Source: an uncultured Fidelibacterota bacterium (GTDB lineage: Bacteria > Fidelibacterota > Marinisomatia > Marinisomatales > Marinisomataceae). Taken from it: 64,000 nt of DNA. Location of the stretch: NCBI GenBank assembly GCA_902629855.1, contig CACOSI010000003.1, positions 70,966 through 134,965 on the forward strand, given 5' to 3'. The position numbers and the translations under genes were made by a program. The notes under the pieces are model-generated. The model was not told where the DNA came from, searched no databases, and worked only from the letters and a program-made list of their open reading frames with translations. Of this stretch, positions 11,586 to 21,743 are shown in pieces; position 1 is the stretch's first letter; each line of letters opens with the position of its first letter.

Positions 11586-11614
11586 TTGAATACATCTAAT
11601 TGCATACTTAAACT
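11586..11614 (+). promoter_or_regulatory. Possible sigma70-like promoter of the aromatic operon leader
   Basis: TTGAAT (11586-11591), 17-nt spacer, TAAACT (11609-11614); each 4/6 to consensus only. Confidence 0.25.
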
Positions 11615-11620
11615 AGGTTA

Positions 11621-11680
11621 ATGAACAATTTTTATAACTTTTATTTTTATTTTGAAAGAAGGGGGACTGTAGGCGCCTAA
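11621..11680 (+). CDS. Phe/Tyr-rich attenuator leader peptide MNNFYNFYFYFERRGTVGA
   Basis: ATG AAC AAT TTT TAT AAC TTT TAT TTT TAT TTT GAA AGA AGG GGG ACT GTA GGC GCC TAA read directly; located between the penicillin acylase gene and the chorismate mutase gene, upstream of a terminator hairpin. Confidence 0.85.
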   Translation: MNNFYNFYFYFERRGTVGA

Positions 11681-11712
11681 AGATAAACTTATATTGCAAC
11701 TACACGAACCCT
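11660..11712 (+). promoter_or_regulatory. Candidate antiterminator pairing of the Phe/Tyr attenuator
   Basis: Hand pairing: UGUAG 11668-11672 with CUACA 11700-11704, and AGGG 11660-11663 with CCCU 11709-11712. Would sequester the 5' arm of the terminator. Confidence 0.5.
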
Positions 11713-11735
11713 AGCAAAACCCGCTGGGGTTTTTT
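11707..11735 (+). terminator. Rho-independent terminator (attenuator) upstream of chorismate mutase gene
   Basis: AACCCTAGC (11707-11715) / AAAACCC loop / GCTGGGGTT (11723-11731), 9 bp with one G-U, then T run to 11735. Confidence 0.85.
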
Positions 11736-11752
11736 GTTATATGGAGGTAATT

Positions 11753-12013
11753 ATGAATGAAGAAATACTAAAAAAAAGAGAAATTATTGATAGCGTAGAT
11801 AGTAAAATTTTTGATTTATTACTTGAAAGATTAGATGCTGTCAATTCTATTGGTTATTTAAAAAAGCAAGAAGGTTTACCAGTTTTAGATCAAGAAAGAG
11901 AAAATGCAATCTATGCAAAAATTGATGCAAAATTCTCAATAGTTGAGTCTTCTTTTTTAAAGCCAATTTATAGAACAATTATAACCGAATCGAAGAAAGT
12001 AGAGGAGTTGTAA
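11753..12013 (+). CDS. Chorismate mutase, AroQ-type
   Basis: LKKREIIDSVDSKIFDLLLERLDAVNSIGYLKKQEGLPVLDQERE; SD GGAGG at 11743-11747 implies start at 11753 rather than 11741. Confidence 0.85.
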   Translation: MNEEILKKREIIDSVDSKIFDLLLERLDAVNSIGYLKKQEGLPVLDQERENAIYAKIDAKFSIVESSFLKPIYRTIITESKKVEEL

Positions 12014-13353
12014 TGACAAAATGGTCAAAAGATTCTTGGAAAGAATTTAAAATAAAACATATACCGGAATACAAAGATCCAAGGCAACTGGAAAAAGCTT
12101 TAAAAAAGTTAGAAGGATTTCCCCCTCTAGTTTTTGCAGGTGAATGTAGAAATTTAAAAGAAGATTTAGCTAAAGCTACAAATGGTGAAGCATTTTTAGT
12201 CCAAGGAGGTGACTGCGCTGAAAGTTTTAAAGAATTTAATGCAAATAATATCAGAGACACCTTTCGAGTAATTTTACAAATGAGTGCTGTTATCACTGCT
12301 AAATTAAAGGTTCCTGTGATCAAGCTTGGAAGAATTGCAGGTCAATTTGCTAAGCCAAGAACATCTGATCATGAAACAATTAATGGAGAAAGATTAAACA
12401 GTTATTACGGTGATTCAATAAATGATATTGAATTTTCAGCTGAAAAACGTGAACCTAATCCTGCTAGACTTCTTAGAGCATACTCACAATCTGCCTCAAC
12501 ACTAAACCTGTTAAGATCATTCGCGCAAGGGGGATTTGCCAATCTAAGAAAAGTAAACTCATGGAATATGGGTTTTGTAAAAGCAAGTAAAGAGGGAAAA
12601 AAATATGAAAAAATTGCAGCTAAGATTAATGAATATTTAGATTTTATGGATGCTGTAGGTGTAAATACTTCAAAAGTAATTGATTTAAATACAGTTGAGT
12701 TCTTCACAAGCCATGAAGGCTTGCATCTTCCATATGAATCTGCATTAACTCGAGTTGATTCACTCACTAATGAGGTTTATTGTACTTCAGCACATTTTAT
12801 ATGGATTGGCGATAGAACTCGCTTTATAGATAGTGCACATGTAGAATTTTGTAGAGGAATAAGCAATCCAATTGGTATCAAGTGTGGCCCAAGTTTGGAA
12901 CCAAAAGAATTAATAAAAATTATAGAAAAAATTAACCCAGAAAATCAAGCTGGAAAAATTTCACTAATTTTTAGATATGGTGAAAACAATATAGATAAAT
13001 ATTTACCAAAACTCGTTGATGAAATCATCAAAAATAAGAAAAAAGTTCTGTGGATTTCTGATCCTATGCACGGAAATACAGTGAAATCCTCATCAGGCCT
13101 AAAAACTCGTGATTTTAATGCTTTACTAAAAGAAACATCAAAGTCTATTAAAATTTTAAAAAAGAAAGGATGTCATTTAGGAGGAATTCATCTTGAAATG
13201 ACAGGTCAAAACGTTACTGAGTGCACAGGAGGAATCTATAAACTAGGTGATGATGATCTTAATTCAAGATACCATACGCATTGTGACCCAAGATTGAATG
13301 CTAATCAAGCGTTAGAGCTCTCTTTCAATATTGCAGAGGAGCTACAAGGTTAA
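12013..13353 (+). CDS. 3-deoxy-7-phosphoheptulonate synthase, class II (plant type)
   Basis: PPLVFAGECRNLKEDLA, FLVQGGDCAESF, KLGRIAGQFAKPRT, WISDPMHGNT, GGIHLEMTGQNVTEC. Confidence 0.95.
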   Translation: MTKWSKDSWKEFKIKHIPEYKDPRQLEKALKKLEGFPPLVFAGECRNLKEDLAKATNGEAFLVQGGDCAESFKEFNANNIRDTFRVILQMSAVITAKLKVPVIKLGRIAGQFAKPRTSDHETINGERLNSYYGDSINDIEFSAEKREPNPARLLRAYSQSASTLNLLRSFAQGGFANLRKVNSWNMGFVKASKEGKKYEKIAAKINEYLDFMDAVGVNTSKVIDLNTVEFFTSHEGLHLPYESALTRVDSLTNEVYCTSAHFIWIGDRTRFIDSAHVEFCRGISNPIGIKCGPSLEPKELIKIIEKINPENQAGKISLIFRYGENNIDKYLPKLVDEIIKNKKKVLWISDPMHGNTVKSSSGLKTRDFNALLKETSKSIKILKKKGCHLGGIHLEMTGQNVTECTGGIYKLGDDDLNSRYHTHCDPRLNANQALELSFNIAEELQG

Positions 13354-14604
13354 ATGCTAGTTCAAGGTACATTGCAACTTCCAGGAGATAAATCTATTTC
13401 TCATAGAGCAATTATGCTTTCGGCCATAGCTGATGGAGTTAGTTATGTTAAAAATTTAAATGATGGAGCTGATCTGCAATCAACAATTAATATTTTAAGG
13501 GATTGTGGAGCTTCGATTGATCATAAGGAGGATGAGCTCGTAATAAATGGAAAAAAACTTCATTCTCCATCCAAAGATCTTGATTGTGGCAATTCAGGCA
13601 CTACCACTAGACTGGTTGCAGGATTATTAGCTTCTCAAAAATTAACATTCTCATTAATTGGAGATGAATCATTATCAAAAAGACCAATGAAGCGAATAAT
13701 TACACCTTTAAAATCAATGGGATGTAAAATTTCCTCAAATAATGGATTATTGCCTTTGTCAATAGATGCTTCTGATGGCACTAGCGCTATAGACTTTGAT
13801 ATGAAAGTTGCGAGCGCACAGGTGAAATCATGTATACTTTTTTCCGCGTTAGGCGGAAATAATGTATCAAGTATTAATGAGATTATTCCAACGAGAAATC
13901 ATTCTGAGATTATGTTAAAAAATATGGGAGCATCAATTGAAAGAGAAGGAAGTAAAATTATAGTTCATCCGCTTAAATCCAAATTAAAGCCGATTGATAT
14001 TTCTATACCCTCAGATCCATCTTCAGCCGCCTTTTTTGCTGCTTTAGCAGTCATTAATAATAATTCAAATTTAAAGTTGACTAATGTATTGCTTAACGAG
14101 TCTAGAATTGGATTTGTTGAAGTTCTTAATGAAATGAATTGTTTAATATCAAAATCAAATGAATCAATTCACAATGGTGAAAAAGTTGGAGATTTAACTA
14201 TTAGTTCATCTAATCTTAAAGCAATAGAAATTGAATCAGAAACTATACCATCAATTATTGATGAAGTACCAGTACTAGCGGTTGTAGCGGCTTTTGCAAA
14301 CGGCACAACAGTTTTTAAAAATGTTGAAGAGTTAAAATATAAAGAATGTGATAGATTAAGCGCAATTATACATAATCTAGAAGCATTTGGAATCAAGGCA
14401 TATGAAAAAAATAATGATTTATTTGTCGAGGGTGGTAAGGTAAAAAGAATGCCTAAAATAACTTCGTTTGATGATCATAGAATTGCTATGGCATTTACAA
14501 TTTTAAGTCTTACTTCTTTTGAAAAATATGAGCTTGATAATGAGAAATGTGTTGATATTTCATTACCAAAATTTTTCAATTATCTTAGTGAGATAACCAA
14601 ATGA
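13354..14604 (+). CDS. aroA: 3-phosphoshikimate 1-carboxyvinyltransferase (EPSP synthase)
   Basis: LPGDKSISHRAIML, DCGNSGTTTRL, KECDRLSAI, DDHRIAMAF. Confidence 0.95.
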   Translation: MLVQGTLQLPGDKSISHRAIMLSAIADGVSYVKNLNDGADLQSTINILRDCGASIDHKEDELVINGKKLHSPSKDLDCGNSGTTTRLVAGLLASQKLTFSLIGDESLSKRPMKRIITPLKSMGCKISSNNGLLPLSIDASDGTSAIDFDMKVASAQVKSCILFSALGGNNVSSINEIIPTRNHSEIMLKNMGASIEREGSKIIVHPLKSKLKPIDISIPSDPSSAAFFAALAVINNNSNLKLTNVLLNESRIGFVEVLNEMNCLISKSNESIHNGEKVGDLTISSSNLKAIEIESETIPSIIDEVPVLAVVAAFANGTTVFKNVEELKYKECDRLSAIIHNLEAFGIKAYEKNNDLFVEGGKVKRMPKITSFDDHRIAMAFTILSLTSFEKYELDNEKCVDISLPKFFNYLSEITK

Positions 14605-15419
14605 AATTTGCAGTTATAGGAAATCCAATTGATAAAAGTTTAAGCCCTCAGCTTCATGAAATTCTTTATGAGAAATTAAATATTTTGAACTGTTCTTTTA
14701 AAAAAATTCATTTAGAAAATGATAAACTAGATAATTTTTTTAAAAATGATTTTGATTTATTTGATGGAATAAATGTTACAATACCATTTAAAAGTAAAGT
14801 AGTAAAATTTTTGAATTCTATTGATAATGAAGCAAAAATTTTAGGTAATGTAAATTGTATTTCAAAATCAAATAATATGATTTGTGGATTTAATACTGAT
14901 AAGTATGGATTTGATATGCTACTAAATAAAAATGAAATAGTTGTTGAGGGAAGTAGCTGTATTGTTCTTGGGGCTGGATCATCCTCAAAAACAGTAGTTA
15001 AATGCTTAATTGACCAAGGAGTTGGTAGGATTATTATAAAAAATAGATCTTTAGATAATGCTAGGGATATTAAAAATTTTGCTTATAGCCTTGGATTTAA
15101 AAATATTGAGTTATTTAATTTAAATTTTCCCAGTTTTGATATTGCAATCAATACAACCCCAATAGGAATGTATAAGGAAGATAAAGACAACTTTTTTCAC
15201 ATACCTGTTGATAAAAACACAACAATTATAGACCTTATTTATACTTCAAAAGAAACATTATTTTTGAGAAAATTTGATCAGTGCTCCCAAAAAGTAAATG
15301 GTCTTGATATGTTTATTTACCAGGCTTTGAAGTCTATTGAAATTTGGAGAGAAACTAACTATAATTTGGATTCACAGATTGAATCTGTGAGAAAACAATT
15401 GGAGAATATAAAATGTTAA
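14601..15419 (+). CDS. aroE: Shikimate dehydrogenase
   Basis: VIGNPIDKSLSPQLH, NVTIPFKSKV, LGAGSSSKTVV, NTTPIGMY. Confidence 0.93.
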   Translation: MKFAVIGNPIDKSLSPQLHEILYEKLNILNCSFKKIHLENDKLDNFFKNDFDLFDGINVTIPFKSKVVKFLNSIDNEAKILGNVNCISKSNNMICGFNTDKYGFDMLLNKNEIVVEGSSCIVLGAGSSSKTVVKCLIDQGVGRIIIKNRSLDNARDIKNFAYSLGFKNIELFNLNFPSFDIAINTTPIGMYKEDKDNFFHIPVDKNTTIIDLIYTSKETLFLRKFDQCSQKVNGLDMFIYQALKSIEIWRETNYNLDSQIESVRKQLENIKC

Positions 15420-16573
15420 AAAAAATATCATACATGACTGCTGGAGAATCACATGGTAAAGGTTTAATAGGTATTATTGAGGGAATTCCTGCAGGTCTTC
15501 TATTGACAGAAGAATATATTGCAATAGACCTTTTAAGAAGGATGCAAGGTCATGGAAGAGGTGGTAGGATGAAAATTGAAAAAGACTTTGCAGAAATTTT
15601 TTCAGGTGTTAGACACGAGAAAACACTTGGTTCTCCAATTTCACTCATAATTAAGAATTTGGATTGGGTAAATTGGGAGGACAGGATGGCAGTCGGCAAA
15701 CCTGAAAAAGAACATAAGAAGATTTCTATGCCTCGTCCTGGACATGCTGATTTAGCTGGTATGATGAAATATGATTTTGATGATTTAAGAAATGTTCTTG
15801 AGCGCTCATCTGCAAGGGAAACAGCTATGAGAGTTGCAATAGGCGCTATTTGTAAAAGACTTTTAGAAGAGGTTGGGATTCTCATTGGCAGTAGAGTTTA
15901 TCAAATTCATGATATCGTTGATAAAACGCCTGTTTCAGCAAATATGTTATTAAAAGATTTGAATGATACCGCCGACGCATCTGCTGTTAGATGTCTAGAT
16001 AAAGATATTGAGGCTAAGATGATTGAAGTAATTGATACTGCAAAGCGTAATGGGGACTCTGTTGGTGGATCATTTGAGGTAGTAGCATCAGGATTACCTT
16101 ATGGCTTAGGCTCATACATAAATGCTGATGGCAAACTACAAGCTCGAATAACTCAAGCTATGATGTCAGTTAATGCTTTTAAAGGTGTTGAGCTAGGAGC
16201 GGGCTTTGCTTCGAGTGCAGCTTTTGGTAGCGAACTTCATGATGAAATACTTCTTGAAGATAATAAAATTACGCGTTCTAGCAATAATGCCGGAGGTATT
16301 GAAGGTGGAATGAGCAATGCTCAACCTATTCATGTAAAAGTAAGTATGAAACCTCTATCTACTTTAGTTAAACCTTTAAAGTCAATTGATTTAGAGAAAA
16401 TGGAACCAGTATTAGCTCATAAAGAAAGGACAGATTCGTGTGCTGTTCCAGCAGCGTCTATTATTGGTGAAAGTATGTTAGCCATTGTTTTAGCAGATGC
16501 ACTATTAGAAAAATTTGGTGGCGATAGTATAGAACAACTCAAAAAGCACATTAAAAGTAGTGGAAGATATTAA
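15413..16573 (+). CDS. aroC: Chorismate synthase
   Basis: GESHGKGLIGIIEGIPAG, RPGHADLAG, RSSARETAMRVA, GGIEGGMSNAQPI. Confidence 0.96.
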   Translation: MLKKISYMTAGESHGKGLIGIIEGIPAGLLLTEEYIAIDLLRRMQGHGRGGRMKIEKDFAEIFSGVRHEKTLGSPISLIIKNLDWVNWEDRMAVGKPEKEHKKISMPRPGHADLAGMMKYDFDDLRNVLERSSARETAMRVAIGAICKRLLEEVGILIGSRVYQIHDIVDKTPVSANMLLKDLNDTADASAVRCLDKDIEAKMIEVIDTAKRNGDSVGGSFEVVASGLPYGLGSYINADGKLQARITQAMMSVNAFKGVELGAGFASSAAFGSELHDEILLEDNKITRSSNNAGGIEGGMSNAQPIHVKVSMKPLSTLVKPLKSIDLEKMEPVLAHKERTDSCAVPAASIIGESMLAIVLADALLEKFGGDSIEQLKKHIKSSGRY

Positions 16574-17069
16574 AAATATTTACATGATTGGCATGATGGG
16601 TTCTGGTAAATCGTCCGTTGGAGAACTGTTGTCGAGAAGAATGAGTTGGAAATTTATTGATTTTGATCAAGAAATAGAAAATGATGAAAAATGTACAATA
16701 AATGAAATTTTTAGCGAGAATGAGAGCAGATTTAGAAAATTAGAAACAAAAAAAATTCATGAACTCAAGGACTTCAATAGAACTATTTTTTCGACGGGTG
16801 GTGGGATTGTTATGAATAAGAAAAACTATGATTTACTTTCAAATTCATTCTGTATTTACTTAAAAACTTCTATCAGCGAAATCTTGAAGCGAATCGAGCA
16901 AGATAATTCAAGACCTTTAATTAAAAATAAAAAGTTAGAAACGCTAAATAATATTGAAAAAGAAAGACAAAACGTATATAGCTCTTTAGCTGATTTAACT
17001 ATAAATACTGATAACAAATCTATTGATGAAATCTGTAGTATTATTGAGGAAAAAATCAATGTCAAATAA
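16560..17069 (+). CDS. aroK: Shikimate kinase (GTG start, overlaps aroC)
   Basis: IGMMGSGKSSVGELLSRR Walker A, DFDQEIE, STGGGIV, RPLI. Confidence 0.92.
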   Translation: MEDIKNIYMIGMMGSGKSSVGELLSRRMSWKFIDFDQEIENDEKCTINEIFSENESRFRKLETKKIHELKDFNRTIFSTGGGIVMNKKNYDLLSNSFCIYLKTSISEILKRIEQDNSRPLIKNKKLETLNNIEKERQNVYSSLADLTINTDNKSIDEICSIIEEKINVK

Positions 17070-18129
17070 AGTAAAAGTTAACTTAGGTAAAGAAAGTTAT
17101 GACATTTTATTTAGTTCAGACTTTGCACTTTCAATAAAAAATCATGCTGAAAAAGTTAAGTCTGATTGTTTGATTATTACGCAAAAAAATATTGCTAATT
17201 TATTTCAAGAACAGTTTAAAGTACTCCATAATATTGATAATGTTTTTTTTATTTATTTAGAAGATGGAGAAAAGGCAAAATCTATTGATTCAATAATGAA
17301 GATTTGCAATTATATGTCTGAAAAAAATTTTGATAGATCCTCGAAGATTTTTGCTGTTGGAGGAGGTGTTGTAGGTGATATTTCTGGATTTGCAGCATCT
17401 ATTTTTATGAGAGGTATTGACTATTATCAATATCCAACAACTTTGCTAGCGATGATAGACTCTTCTGTTGGAGGTAAAACCGGAATTAATTTAGATAAAG
17501 GAAAAAATTTAGTCGGAAGAATTTATCAGCCAAAAGAGGTTTTAATTGATACCATATTTTTGTCAACATTGCCAGGTAGACAGTTTAATGCTGCTTTAGC
17601 TGAAGCTATAAAGTATGGCTTCATTTATGATAGAGATTTATTTTTCTTAATTAATAATAATATTGAAAATATTCTACAAAATAGGTCTATAGAATTAATA
17701 AAAAAAATTATAACCAATTGTTGCGAAATTAAAAGTGATATTGTAAGTGAAGATGTTAATGAAAACGAACTAAGGATGATTCTAAATTTTGGACATACAA
17801 TTGGTCATGCGCTTGAGGCATATCAAAATTATAAAGAGCTTTTACATGGAGAAGCTATATTTTATGGTATGAAATGCGCAATAAGCATTTCACATAAAAA
17901 AGGTTCATTAAATGAATCAGAATACAATACTTCAATGGAGGTTTTAAATAGATTTAATCTACCTTTAATCAAAATTCAAGATAAAGAAAAATTAATCGCT
18001 TTAATCAAAAATGATAAAAAATTTAGGGAAAAGGAAATAAACTTTATTTTACTTGATGAAATAGGAAAAGCTTATATTTCATCGGATATAAAAATGAATG
18101 ATATTGAAGAAAGCTTGAGTTGCATATGA
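17059..18129 (+). CDS. aroB: 3-dehydroquinate synthase
   Basis: AVGGGVVGDISGFAASIFMRGI, PTTLLAMIDSSVGGKTGIN, LNFGHTIGHALE; start likely MSNKVKV at 17059. Confidence 0.94.
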   Translation: MSNKVKVNLGKESYDILFSSDFALSIKNHAEKVKSDCLIITQKNIANLFQEQFKVLHNIDNVFFIYLEDGEKAKSIDSIMKICNYMSEKNFDRSSKIFAVGGGVVGDISGFAASIFMRGIDYYQYPTTLLAMIDSSVGGKTGINLDKGKNLVGRIYQPKEVLIDTIFLSTLPGRQFNAALAEAIKYGFIYDRDLFFLINNNIENILQNRSIELIKKIITNCCEIKSDIVSEDVNENELRMILNFGHTIGHALEAYQNYKELLHGEAIFYGMKCAISISHKKGSLNESEYNTSMEVLNRFNLPLIKIQDKEKLIALIKNDKKFREKEINFILLDEIGKAYISSDIKMNDIEESLSCI

Positions 18130-18557
18130 GGATACTAATTATCAATGGCCCAAACCTAAATTTATTGGGTGAAAGGGAGACAAATATTTATGGATCAGAA
18201 ACATTAGATCAAATAAATAATTGGATTTTAAATCACGAACTTTGTAAAGATTTTGATATTAAATTTTTTCAATCTAACTCGGAAGGAAAAATAATTGATT
18301 TTCTTCATTCAAATAGAAAAAATTCTGACTATTGTTTAATAAATCCTGGAGCATTAACACATTATTCATATTCCCTAAGGGATGCAATTGTTGCATGCCA
18401 AATTCCAACAATAGAGATTCATTTATCAGATATTCATAAAAGAGAAAATTTTAGAAAGATATCAGTAATTAAGAGCGTTTGTTTAGAGCAGATTTATGGA
18501 CGAGGAAAAGAAGGTTATATCATTGCTATTAAAAGAATTTTGGAGGAAAAATTATGA
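18126..18557 (+). CDS. aroQ: 3-dehydroquinate dehydratase, type II
   Basis: ILIINGPNLNLLGERETNIYG, QSNSEGKIIDFLH, INPGALTHYSYSLRDAI, EIHLSDIHKRE. Confidence 0.94.
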   Translation: MRILIINGPNLNLLGERETNIYGSETLDQINNWILNHELCKDFDIKFFQSNSEGKIIDFLHSNRKNSDYCLINPGALTHYSYSLRDAIVACQIPTIEIHLSDIHKRENFRKISVIKSVCLEQIYGRGKEGYIIAIKRILEEKL

Positions 18558-19123
18558 TTATTGGTATTCAAGGAATAGAAGGAAGCTTTAGCGAGGAAGC
18601 TGCAAAATCTTATTGTAAAAAATTTAACATTGAGAATTTTTCAATCGAATATCTTGTAAGTTCAATGAATGTGTTAGATCATTTATCAAAAAAATCAATT
18701 GATACTGGAGTTTTTGCCATGGAAAATGCTCAAGGTGGAGTTGTTATTGAAAGCGTTGAAGCACTAGCAAGAAATAATTGTGAAATCATTGATATGTTTT
18801 ATGTTGAAATCAGCCAAAATTTATTAGCTAAACCTGGAATATCATTGGGTGATATTGAAGAAATACATTCCCATGAACAAGCACTAAAGCAGTGTAAAGA
18901 TTATTTAGCAGAAAAATTTTGGTCAAAGAAGCTTGTTGAGCAGGCAGATACTGCAAAAGCAGCCCAAGATTTATCTGAAAACAAACTTGATAATAATGTT
19001 GCTGTAATTGCTAGTAAGTTTTCAGCAAAAAAATATGGACTACAAATTTTAGAAAATGATATACATGATTTAAAGAGAAATCTAACTCTTTTCTTAGCTG
19101 TTAAAAGGATAAGTAATGAATAA
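18554..19123 (+). CDS. Prephenate dehydratase-like protein, catalytic domain only
   Basis: IGIQGIEGSFSEEAAKSY, MENAQGGVVIESVEAL, IHSHEQALKQC, ends NLTLFLAVKR; no C-terminal ACT domain. Confidence 0.82.
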   Translation: MIIGIQGIEGSFSEEAAKSYCKKFNIENFSIEYLVSSMNVLDHLSKKSIDTGVFAMENAQGGVVIESVEALARNNCEIIDMFYVEISQNLLAKPGISLGDIEEIHSHEQALKQCKDYLAEKFWSKKLVEQADTAKAAQDLSENKLDNNVAVIASKFSAKKYGLQILENDIHDLKRNLTLFLAVKRISNE

Positions 19124-19829
19124 AGTAAGTATTATTGGTTTTGGAAGGTTTGGAGCAATGCTTCATTCACTATTATCAAAAGGTTTTGAGGTAGATGTTT
19201 ATGATAAAAATCCCATTAACAATTCAGATATCAATGAAGTTACTTTAGAAAATGCTTTATTAAATGAAACAATTTTTATTGCTGTTCCAATAAGAGATTT
19301 TGAAGATTTAATAATACAAATATCTGATAAGATTTCAGAAGGTAAGACCATCATCGATGTTTGTTCGGTAAAAGTATATCCAAAGAAAGTAATGACAGCT
19401 AATATTCCGTCAGACGTAGATATAATTGCAACACATCCACTTTTTGGTCCTGATTCTTTGAAAGATAGTGGATCTGTAATGACAATGGAGTCAGTAAGAG
19501 ACTCTTATGATAGATATGATTTTTGGAAAAATTATTTTTCAAGTCAAAACATTATTATTGAAGAAATTTCTGCAGAAGAACATGATATGATGGCAGCAAA
19601 ATCTCAAGGTTTAACACATTTTGTTGGTAGAATTATTGATGACTTTGGAACTAGTCAAACCAGAATTGATACGGAAGGTTACAAGGCCTTACATAAATTA
19701 GTTAATCAAACATGCAATGACTCTTGGGAATTATTTGAAGACATTCAAAATTATAATCCATATACTAATAAAATGATATCAGAATTGAATGGAAGTTTCA
19801 AAAAAATTAGCGAAATTATAGATAAATAA
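19116..19829 (+). CDS. tyrA: Prephenate/arogenate dehydrogenase (plant/archaeal-like TyrA)
   Basis: IIGFGRFGAMLH Rossmann, VCSVKVYP, ATHPLFGPDS, SQGLTHFVGRI, DTEGYKALHKLVNQTCNDSWELFEDIQNYNPY. Confidence 0.88.
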   Translation: MNKVSIIGFGRFGAMLHSLLSKGFEVDVYDKNPINNSDINEVTLENALLNETIFIAVPIRDFEDLIIQISDKISEGKTIIDVCSVKVYPKKVMTANIPSDVDIIATHPLFGPDSLKDSGSVMTMESVRDSYDRYDFWKNYFSSQNIIIEEISAEEHDMMAAKSQGLTHFVGRIIDDFGTSQTRIDTEGYKALHKLVNQTCNDSWELFEDIQNYNPYTNKMISELNGSFKKISEIIDK

Positions 19830-21712: not shown

Positions 21713-21743
21713 AAAGGGCTACTTATAAAAGTAGCCCTTTTTT
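21713..21743 (+). terminator. Rho-independent terminator (potentially bidirectional)
   Basis: AAAGGGCTACTT / ATAA / AAGTAGCCCTTT plus T run. Confidence 0.9.

Follow-up and report, generated by a model that had tools for sequence, protein, structure and literature searches.

The window analysed here, a 64,000-nucleotide stretch of DNA from an uncultured Fidelibacterota bacterium, carries in front of its operon for phenylalanine and tyrosine synthesis an element that, judging from its sequence and modelled structures, is very probably a ribosome-mediated transcription attenuator sensing phenylalanyl- and tyrosyl-tRNA. The operon consists of ten abutting or overlapping genes whose products cover the whole path from DAHP synthase through to prephenate dehydratase and prephenate dehydrogenase (Table 1); as annotated, it is the route to phenylpyruvate and hydroxyphenylpyruvate and makes Phe and Tyr. 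A strong terminator-like site lies further downstream (21713-21740). The named relatives of the DAHP synthase, which share up to 91% identity with it, belong to Candidatus Marinimicrobia/Neomarinimicrobiota, now Fidelibacterota (SAR406), and the window represents a small-genome genus of this phylum (genome of 0.93 Mb in 19 contigs, 88% complete).

Based on the sequence, its conservation, the codon content of the leader, the operon and the computed structures with their dependence on ribosome position, attenuation can be envisaged as follows: RNA polymerase would start at or near the leader AUG, as the position of the promoter suggests, and a ribosome would translate the 19-codon peptide with its seven Phe/Tyr codons. 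If charged Phe- or Tyr-tRNA is scarce, the ribosome presumably stalls at codons 4-10 and would leave GGGG and UGUAG free to pair with CCCU and CUACA, which would remove the 5' arm of the terminator; with the antiterminator formed, polymerase would be expected to read on into the ten-gene operon. If both tRNAs are plentiful, the ribosome would reach the stop codon and cover both 5' arms, so that the terminator may form and transcription presumably stops near 11733-11736.

Table 1. Features of the attenuator and of the operon that follows it (positions within the window)
Feature	Coordinates	Strand	Remarks
Predicted promoter	11586..11614	+	-35 TTGAAT, 17-nt spacer, -10 TAAACT, end 6 nt before leader ATG
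Leader peptide ORF, MNNFYNFYFYFERRGTVGA (then stop)	11621..11680	+	19 codons; 4 Phe and 3 Tyr control codons, codons 4-11
Antiterminator 5' arm, helix B, GGGG	11661..11664	+	pairs with 11709-11712
Antiterminator 5' arm, helix A, UGUAG	11668..11672	+	100% of cells paired in 18 sequences; one compensatory pair
Antiterminator 3' arm, helix A, CUACA	11700..11704	+	mean column identity 0.96
Terminator 5' arm, AACCCTAGC (AACCCUAGC)	11707..11715	+	its CCCU doubles as antiterminator helix B 3' arm
Terminator 3' arm, GCTGGGGTT (GCUGGGGUU)	11723..11731	+	99.4% of cells paired; three pairs changed on both sides
U tract of intrinsic terminator (T4)	11732..11735	+	read from sequence; terminator-site scan
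Shine-Dalgarno GGAGG of first structural gene	11743..11747	+	start ATG 11753; aligned in relatives
Chorismate mutase (CM_2), first structural gene	11753..12013	+
Class II DAHP synthase	12013..13353	+
aroA, EPSP synthase	13354..14604	+
aroE, shikimate dehydrogenase	14601..15419	+
aroC, chorismate synthase	15413..16573	+
aroK, shikimate kinase	16560..17069	+
aroB, dehydroquinate synthase	17023..18129	+	true start probably downstream of 17023
Type II dehydroquinase	18120..18557	+
pheA, prephenate dehydratase	18554..19123	+
tyrA, prephenate dehydrogenase	19116..19829	+

The leader has the make-up of a short translated ORF rich in codons for the end products of the operon: F and Y account for 7 of its 19 codons, and it is the sole ORF of 12-30 codons with at least seven F/Y in eight codons on either strand of the window. 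Of 22 family representatives, 15 have a -10 element (TAnnnT), accompanied by a -35 element, that ends 5-9 nt upstream of the first in-frame ATG, as compared to 1.05 expected; in L012, L155 and L169, a TAnnnT is seen by eye at this distance once the start is moved to the next ATG. Because the predicted -10 ends only 6 nt before the leader ATG, the transcript is probably leaderless, with transcription beginning at the leader AUG. No Shine-Dalgarno site was found for the window's leader, and most of the 22 representatives lack one as well (L157 has one).

An intrinsic terminator with a covarying stem and a U tract can be recognized between the leader ORF and the first structural gene; the initial annotation had placed its two arms and U4 correctly base by base, and the terminator-like sites in the surrounding 1-kb region exceed chance (four found, 0.4 expected). 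The UGUAG/CUACA helix proposed there is likewise present, kept in all loci of the genus and marked by a compensatory change. Its companion, AGGG (11660-11663) with CCCU (11709-11712), can pair, but RNAfold prefers a register one base further on (G11661-U11712, G11662-C11711, G11663-C11710 and G11664-C11709, plus C11667-G11706), which the best structure of 11615-11740 includes and in which 98.6% of the helix B cells are paired, as against 93.1% in the AGGG register. The pairing of the leader end with the terminator 5' arm amounts to -15.7 kcal/mol (shuffles: -9.2, sd 2.0). The folding z-score of the whole region is weak (-1.02), as expected because the element must adopt two structures.

Antiterminator and terminator exclude each other through GGG(G)/CCC(U), which uses the terminator 5' arm. 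The exclusion originally ascribed to the antiterminator as a whole is thus confined to this part: UGUAG/CUACA alone was rejected as the antiterminator, because it can coexist with the terminator and does so in the RNAalifold consensus fold. This consensus of 18 sequences comprises helix A and the terminator only and contains no conserved protector (1:2) hairpin; therefore, partial readthrough would be expected from untranslated leaders. Two further structural candidates were discarded: a possible further terminator within the antiterminated state, AAAACCC/GGGUUUU, lacks conservation in L008 and L015-L018, and the palindromes around the stop codon (UAGGCGCCUA), together with an AU-rich palindrome after it, are too variable for a structure to be claimed.

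The genus was represented by 18 DAHP synthase loci (L001-L018), of which L010 sits in the bin of another genus. Its contig (C76 of G059) carries a DAHP synthase 83% identical to that of the window's genus inside the genome of another family; since this genome has its own, 61% identical copy, the contig probably is bin contamination from the window's genus. All 18 loci possess the leader ORF at the same place, always with F/Y and never with W, both antiterminator helices and the terminator, and a covariance model of the element finds matches at E<=3.2e-19 in 20 genomes. In its preferred register, the antiterminator is paired in 99.4% of cells, the same proportion as the terminator. The column identity of CUACA, 0.96, compares with 0.71 for the other noncoding columns from the stop codon to the terminator. 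Covariation bears out both helices that the initial annotation had drawn: besides the three pairs of the terminator, helix A shows one compensatory pair, G-C to A-U, in 4 sequences, which within the clade is probably a single event, and another compensatory pair is found in pheA/trpE relatives. Within the antiterminator loop, UAUAU (11690-11694) shows little or no variation across the 18 sequences.

The C-terminus of the leader peptide, RGTV[DEG]A, is conserved in the genus, as it might be if the nascent peptide itself, like TnaC, halted the ribosome upon sensing a free amino acid, instead of the codons sensing charged tRNA. This conservation is largely explained by the GGGG and UGUAG arms, which overlap the C-terminus; across families the C-terminus differs while the F/Y/W content is kept, and F/Y residues change freely in their order and number, which fits codon sensing. 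Peptide-mediated arrest is therefore very improbable, and the attenuator is better understood as reading its control codons.

In the folding models, the outcome depends on whether the ribosome occupies the control codons or the stop codon. Constrained folding of the 18 relatives gives the terminator P=1.00 in every one when the ribosome is placed at the stop codon, just as had been predicted; when it is placed on the middle F/Y codon instead, the window's own sequence adopts the antiterminator with P=0.93. When the ribosome is moved along the window's leader, the antiterminator reaches 0.78-0.89 at codons 3-10 for the full-length RNA and 0.92-0.96 as long as the terminator 3' arm has yet to be transcribed, and from codon 11, the last Phe, onward the terminator prevails (0.96). 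Codon 11 is the switch point, and in the model a stall at this codon would probably not antiterminate. In the absence of a ribosome, the window RNA at full length yields 0.33 for the antiterminator and 0.62 for the terminator, and 0.93 for the antiterminator before the terminator is made.

Similar behaviour is seen throughout the 47 leaders that were collected across the phylum, upstream of CM-DAHPS, pheA, trpE and aroF: the antiterminator has P of at least 0.7 in all of them while the ribosome is on control codons, and it collapses at the last control codon +0/+1 in 42 of the 47 (in a ribosome-position scan that sought the drop from four codons before the last control codon onward). In relatives, the pre-terminator transcript folds as the antiterminator, often lengthened by GC/GC pairs that the window sequence does not have. 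At full-length equilibrium with a stalled ribosome, however, the terminator is favoured in L004 (partly), L008-L012 and L015-L018, and also in most of the pheA/trpE leaders examined; because equilibrium favours the terminator in these relatives, antitermination must be kinetic there, the antiterminator forming first. The original notion that stalling at F/Y codons produces the antiterminator accordingly holds in the model for codons 4-10 of the window's leader, probably fails at codon 11 and in many relatives becomes a question of timing; overall, the modelled effect appears to be partly kinetic.

Outside the genus, weaker matches of the covariance model in other families correspond to attenuators before pheA, trpE and a class I DAHP synthase (gene names beyond the genus were read from translated starts, trpE also by Pfam search). 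A leader with Trp codons and a terminator precedes every full trpE match with enough upstream sequence, in a scan that accepted at least two W, or at least five F/Y/W, in a short stretch and thus did not force W. Trp is present in 18 of 18 distinct trpE leader peptides and in 0 of 14 CM-DAHPS peptides, with at most one for the pheA peptides; as related sequences are not independent, these counts are descriptive only. In genus members with an upstream trp operon, trpE is preceded by a W leader of its own (VKNNSKTWKWYFQVGGSVL), and CM-DAHPS retains the F/Y leader. By Pfam search, trpE was not found in the window's genome (G000) or in most of its genus, nor was histidinol dehydrogenase found in G000 and most of its genus. 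Although absence of trpE from a single incomplete genome would be weak, these gene contents make it probable that the streamlined genus is auxotrophic for Trp and His, and the absence of trpE agrees with a leader that has no Trp codon.

The two ends of the element also belong together. When, with one representative per type, leader ends were re-paired with the terminator regions of other loci, the native combinations summed to -413.5 compared to -300.3 (sd 14.5), and none of 20,000 random re-pairings was as low as the native antiterminators, nor were any of 20,000 within GC bins; this strong, alignment-free result extends the covariation, even if the native pairing of L131, L140 and L199 is no better than that of chimeras. 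Such coevolution of antiterminator and terminator is difficult to reconcile with a plain intrinsic terminator of the upstream penicillin-amidase gene, next to which the short ORF would be incidental and the aro operon transcribed from another promoter. The site does lie between two co-directional transcription units, but most family types have a promoter-like element in the interval that separates the leader from the upstream gene, the F/Y ORF is kept in 18 of 18 loci, W enters exactly where trpE follows, and L128 has the same element although its upstream gene differs (it looks, by reading, like the end of trpA). A plain terminator is thus extremely unlikely, and the arrangement points back to attenuation.

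Within 700-900 nt of DAHP synthase genes in other families, SAR11 and Alphaproteobacteria, no leaders were found; for other Fidelibacterota this null result is misleading, because their leader precedes pheA or trpE, ~1.4 kb or more upstream. The class II DAHP synthase of Pelagibacteraceae (SAR11, L053-L093) is 56-59% identical to that of the window, and that of other Fidelibacterota families ~60%; judging from these identities, a transfer of the gene between SAR11 and Fidelibacterota, without the leader, is possible.

Several leaders seem to have changed their assignment. In L132 and L152, the leader is separated from pheA by an apparent 5' fragment of trpE, which suggests that a trpE leader moved to pheA (L152 could be a misassembly); in L132, L133 and L148, Trp codons appear changed from TGG to TTG or CGG. 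Short ORFs in which 4-7 of 8 codons are Asn, with an intrinsic terminator after them, are located just before asnB in L211-L217, L135 and L161, and short ORFs with 4-5 His codons in 8, again followed by a terminator, are located upstream of his genes in L234, L235, L236 and L238; both groups, the former from several families, are candidate attenuators for Asn and His, respectively, by their sequence. We regard it as rather likely that all these attenuators, mostly leaderless and alternating between two structures with no protector hairpin, form one family that extends through the phylum and adapts a single compact RNA design by means of its control codons: Phe/Tyr before the whole-pathway operon or pheA, Phe/Tyr/Trp before trpE, probably Asn before asnB and His before his genes, with some trpE leaders apparently moved to pheA and their Trp codons lost by point changes.

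Among known systems, the E. coli pheA leader (pheL; Rfam RF01859, Phe_leader) combines a Phe-rich leader peptide with a choice between antiterminator and terminator in the control of aromatic biosynthesis, and the window element shares these traits; in contrast to pheL, it has Phe and Tyr codons together, precedes a whole-pathway operon, has no conserved protector hairpin and is probably leaderless. The position of the ribosome selects the antiterminator or the terminator in the trp attenuator (trpL) of enteric bacteria as well, but the enteric trp RNA forms a 1:2 protector/pause hairpin and its leader is equipped with a Shine-Dalgarno site, neither of which was found in the window element. 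The Phe_leader model gives the element 16.9 bits against a gathering threshold of 55, and none of 61 genomes exceeded the cut-off, which one control genome did; sub-threshold matches in relatives were dismissed, many of them hitting one and the same place on either strand, which is typical of chance hairpins. On its sequence and predicted folding, the element is a member of the ribosome-mediated transcription attenuators and not of Rfam Phe_leader. Within the window, Rfam reported two tRNAs only at gathering thresholds, relaxed thresholds gave no family, and there was no riboswitch or T-box match. These searches also bear on the idea of a riboswitch or TRAP-like device, in which a metabolite or protein would bind directly to the leader RNA and the ORF would be secondary. 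The invariant UAUAU, unexplained by the attenuation model, would suit such binding, but no Rfam family reaches its gathering score here, no conserved aptamer-like structure exists beyond the two alternative hairpins, and the identity of the control codons tracks the pathway; direct binding is hardly conceivable as the principal mechanism, and codon-dependent attenuation accounts for these features.

The closest parallel for the start of the transcript is S. meliloti trpL/rnTrpL, a leaderless leader mRNA beginning at its AUG and an attenuator before an aromatic operon (PMC7298713). A leaderless leader is therefore not new in kind; rnTrpL is alphaproteobacterial and serves a Trp operon, and the likeness is one without demonstrated sequence homology. 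As termination would release a leaderless small mRNA of ~115 nt, like rnTrpL, the released leader RNA or peptide might act in trans in the way of rnTrpL/peTrpL (PMC7298713); this would be an addition and not an alternative to attenuation, and we consider it unlikely. Outside Proteobacteria, leader-peptide attenuation has been described for actinobacterial trp, ilv and leuS (PMC1262725) and for the Bacillus hisS leader peptide (PMC2965389), which concern other phyla and, in the accessible parts of both papers, include no Phe/Tyr or Phe/Tyr/Trp leaders before shikimate genes. No earlier account of attenuation in Marinimicrobia was found in a literature search that covered mainly open-access papers, which makes this a weak absence. 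The novelty lies in the phylum, in control codons for several aromatic amino acids and in how widely one retunable design has spread; the Asn and His leaders are leads.

Relative to the groups named in the accessible parts of the literature compared, leader-peptide attenuation is extended beyond Proteobacteria, Actinobacteria and Firmicutes, and an uncultured, abundant marine phylum with streamlined genomes gains a concrete, testable regulatory mechanism. The tracking of the downstream pathway by codon content over dozens of operons constitutes a natural experiment. For the organism itself, sequence and models suggest that, in a minimal genome, a single RNA element controls Phe/Tyr synthesis as a whole; this element very probably lets a streamlined marine bacterium switch on the entire operon only when Phe or Tyr runs short.
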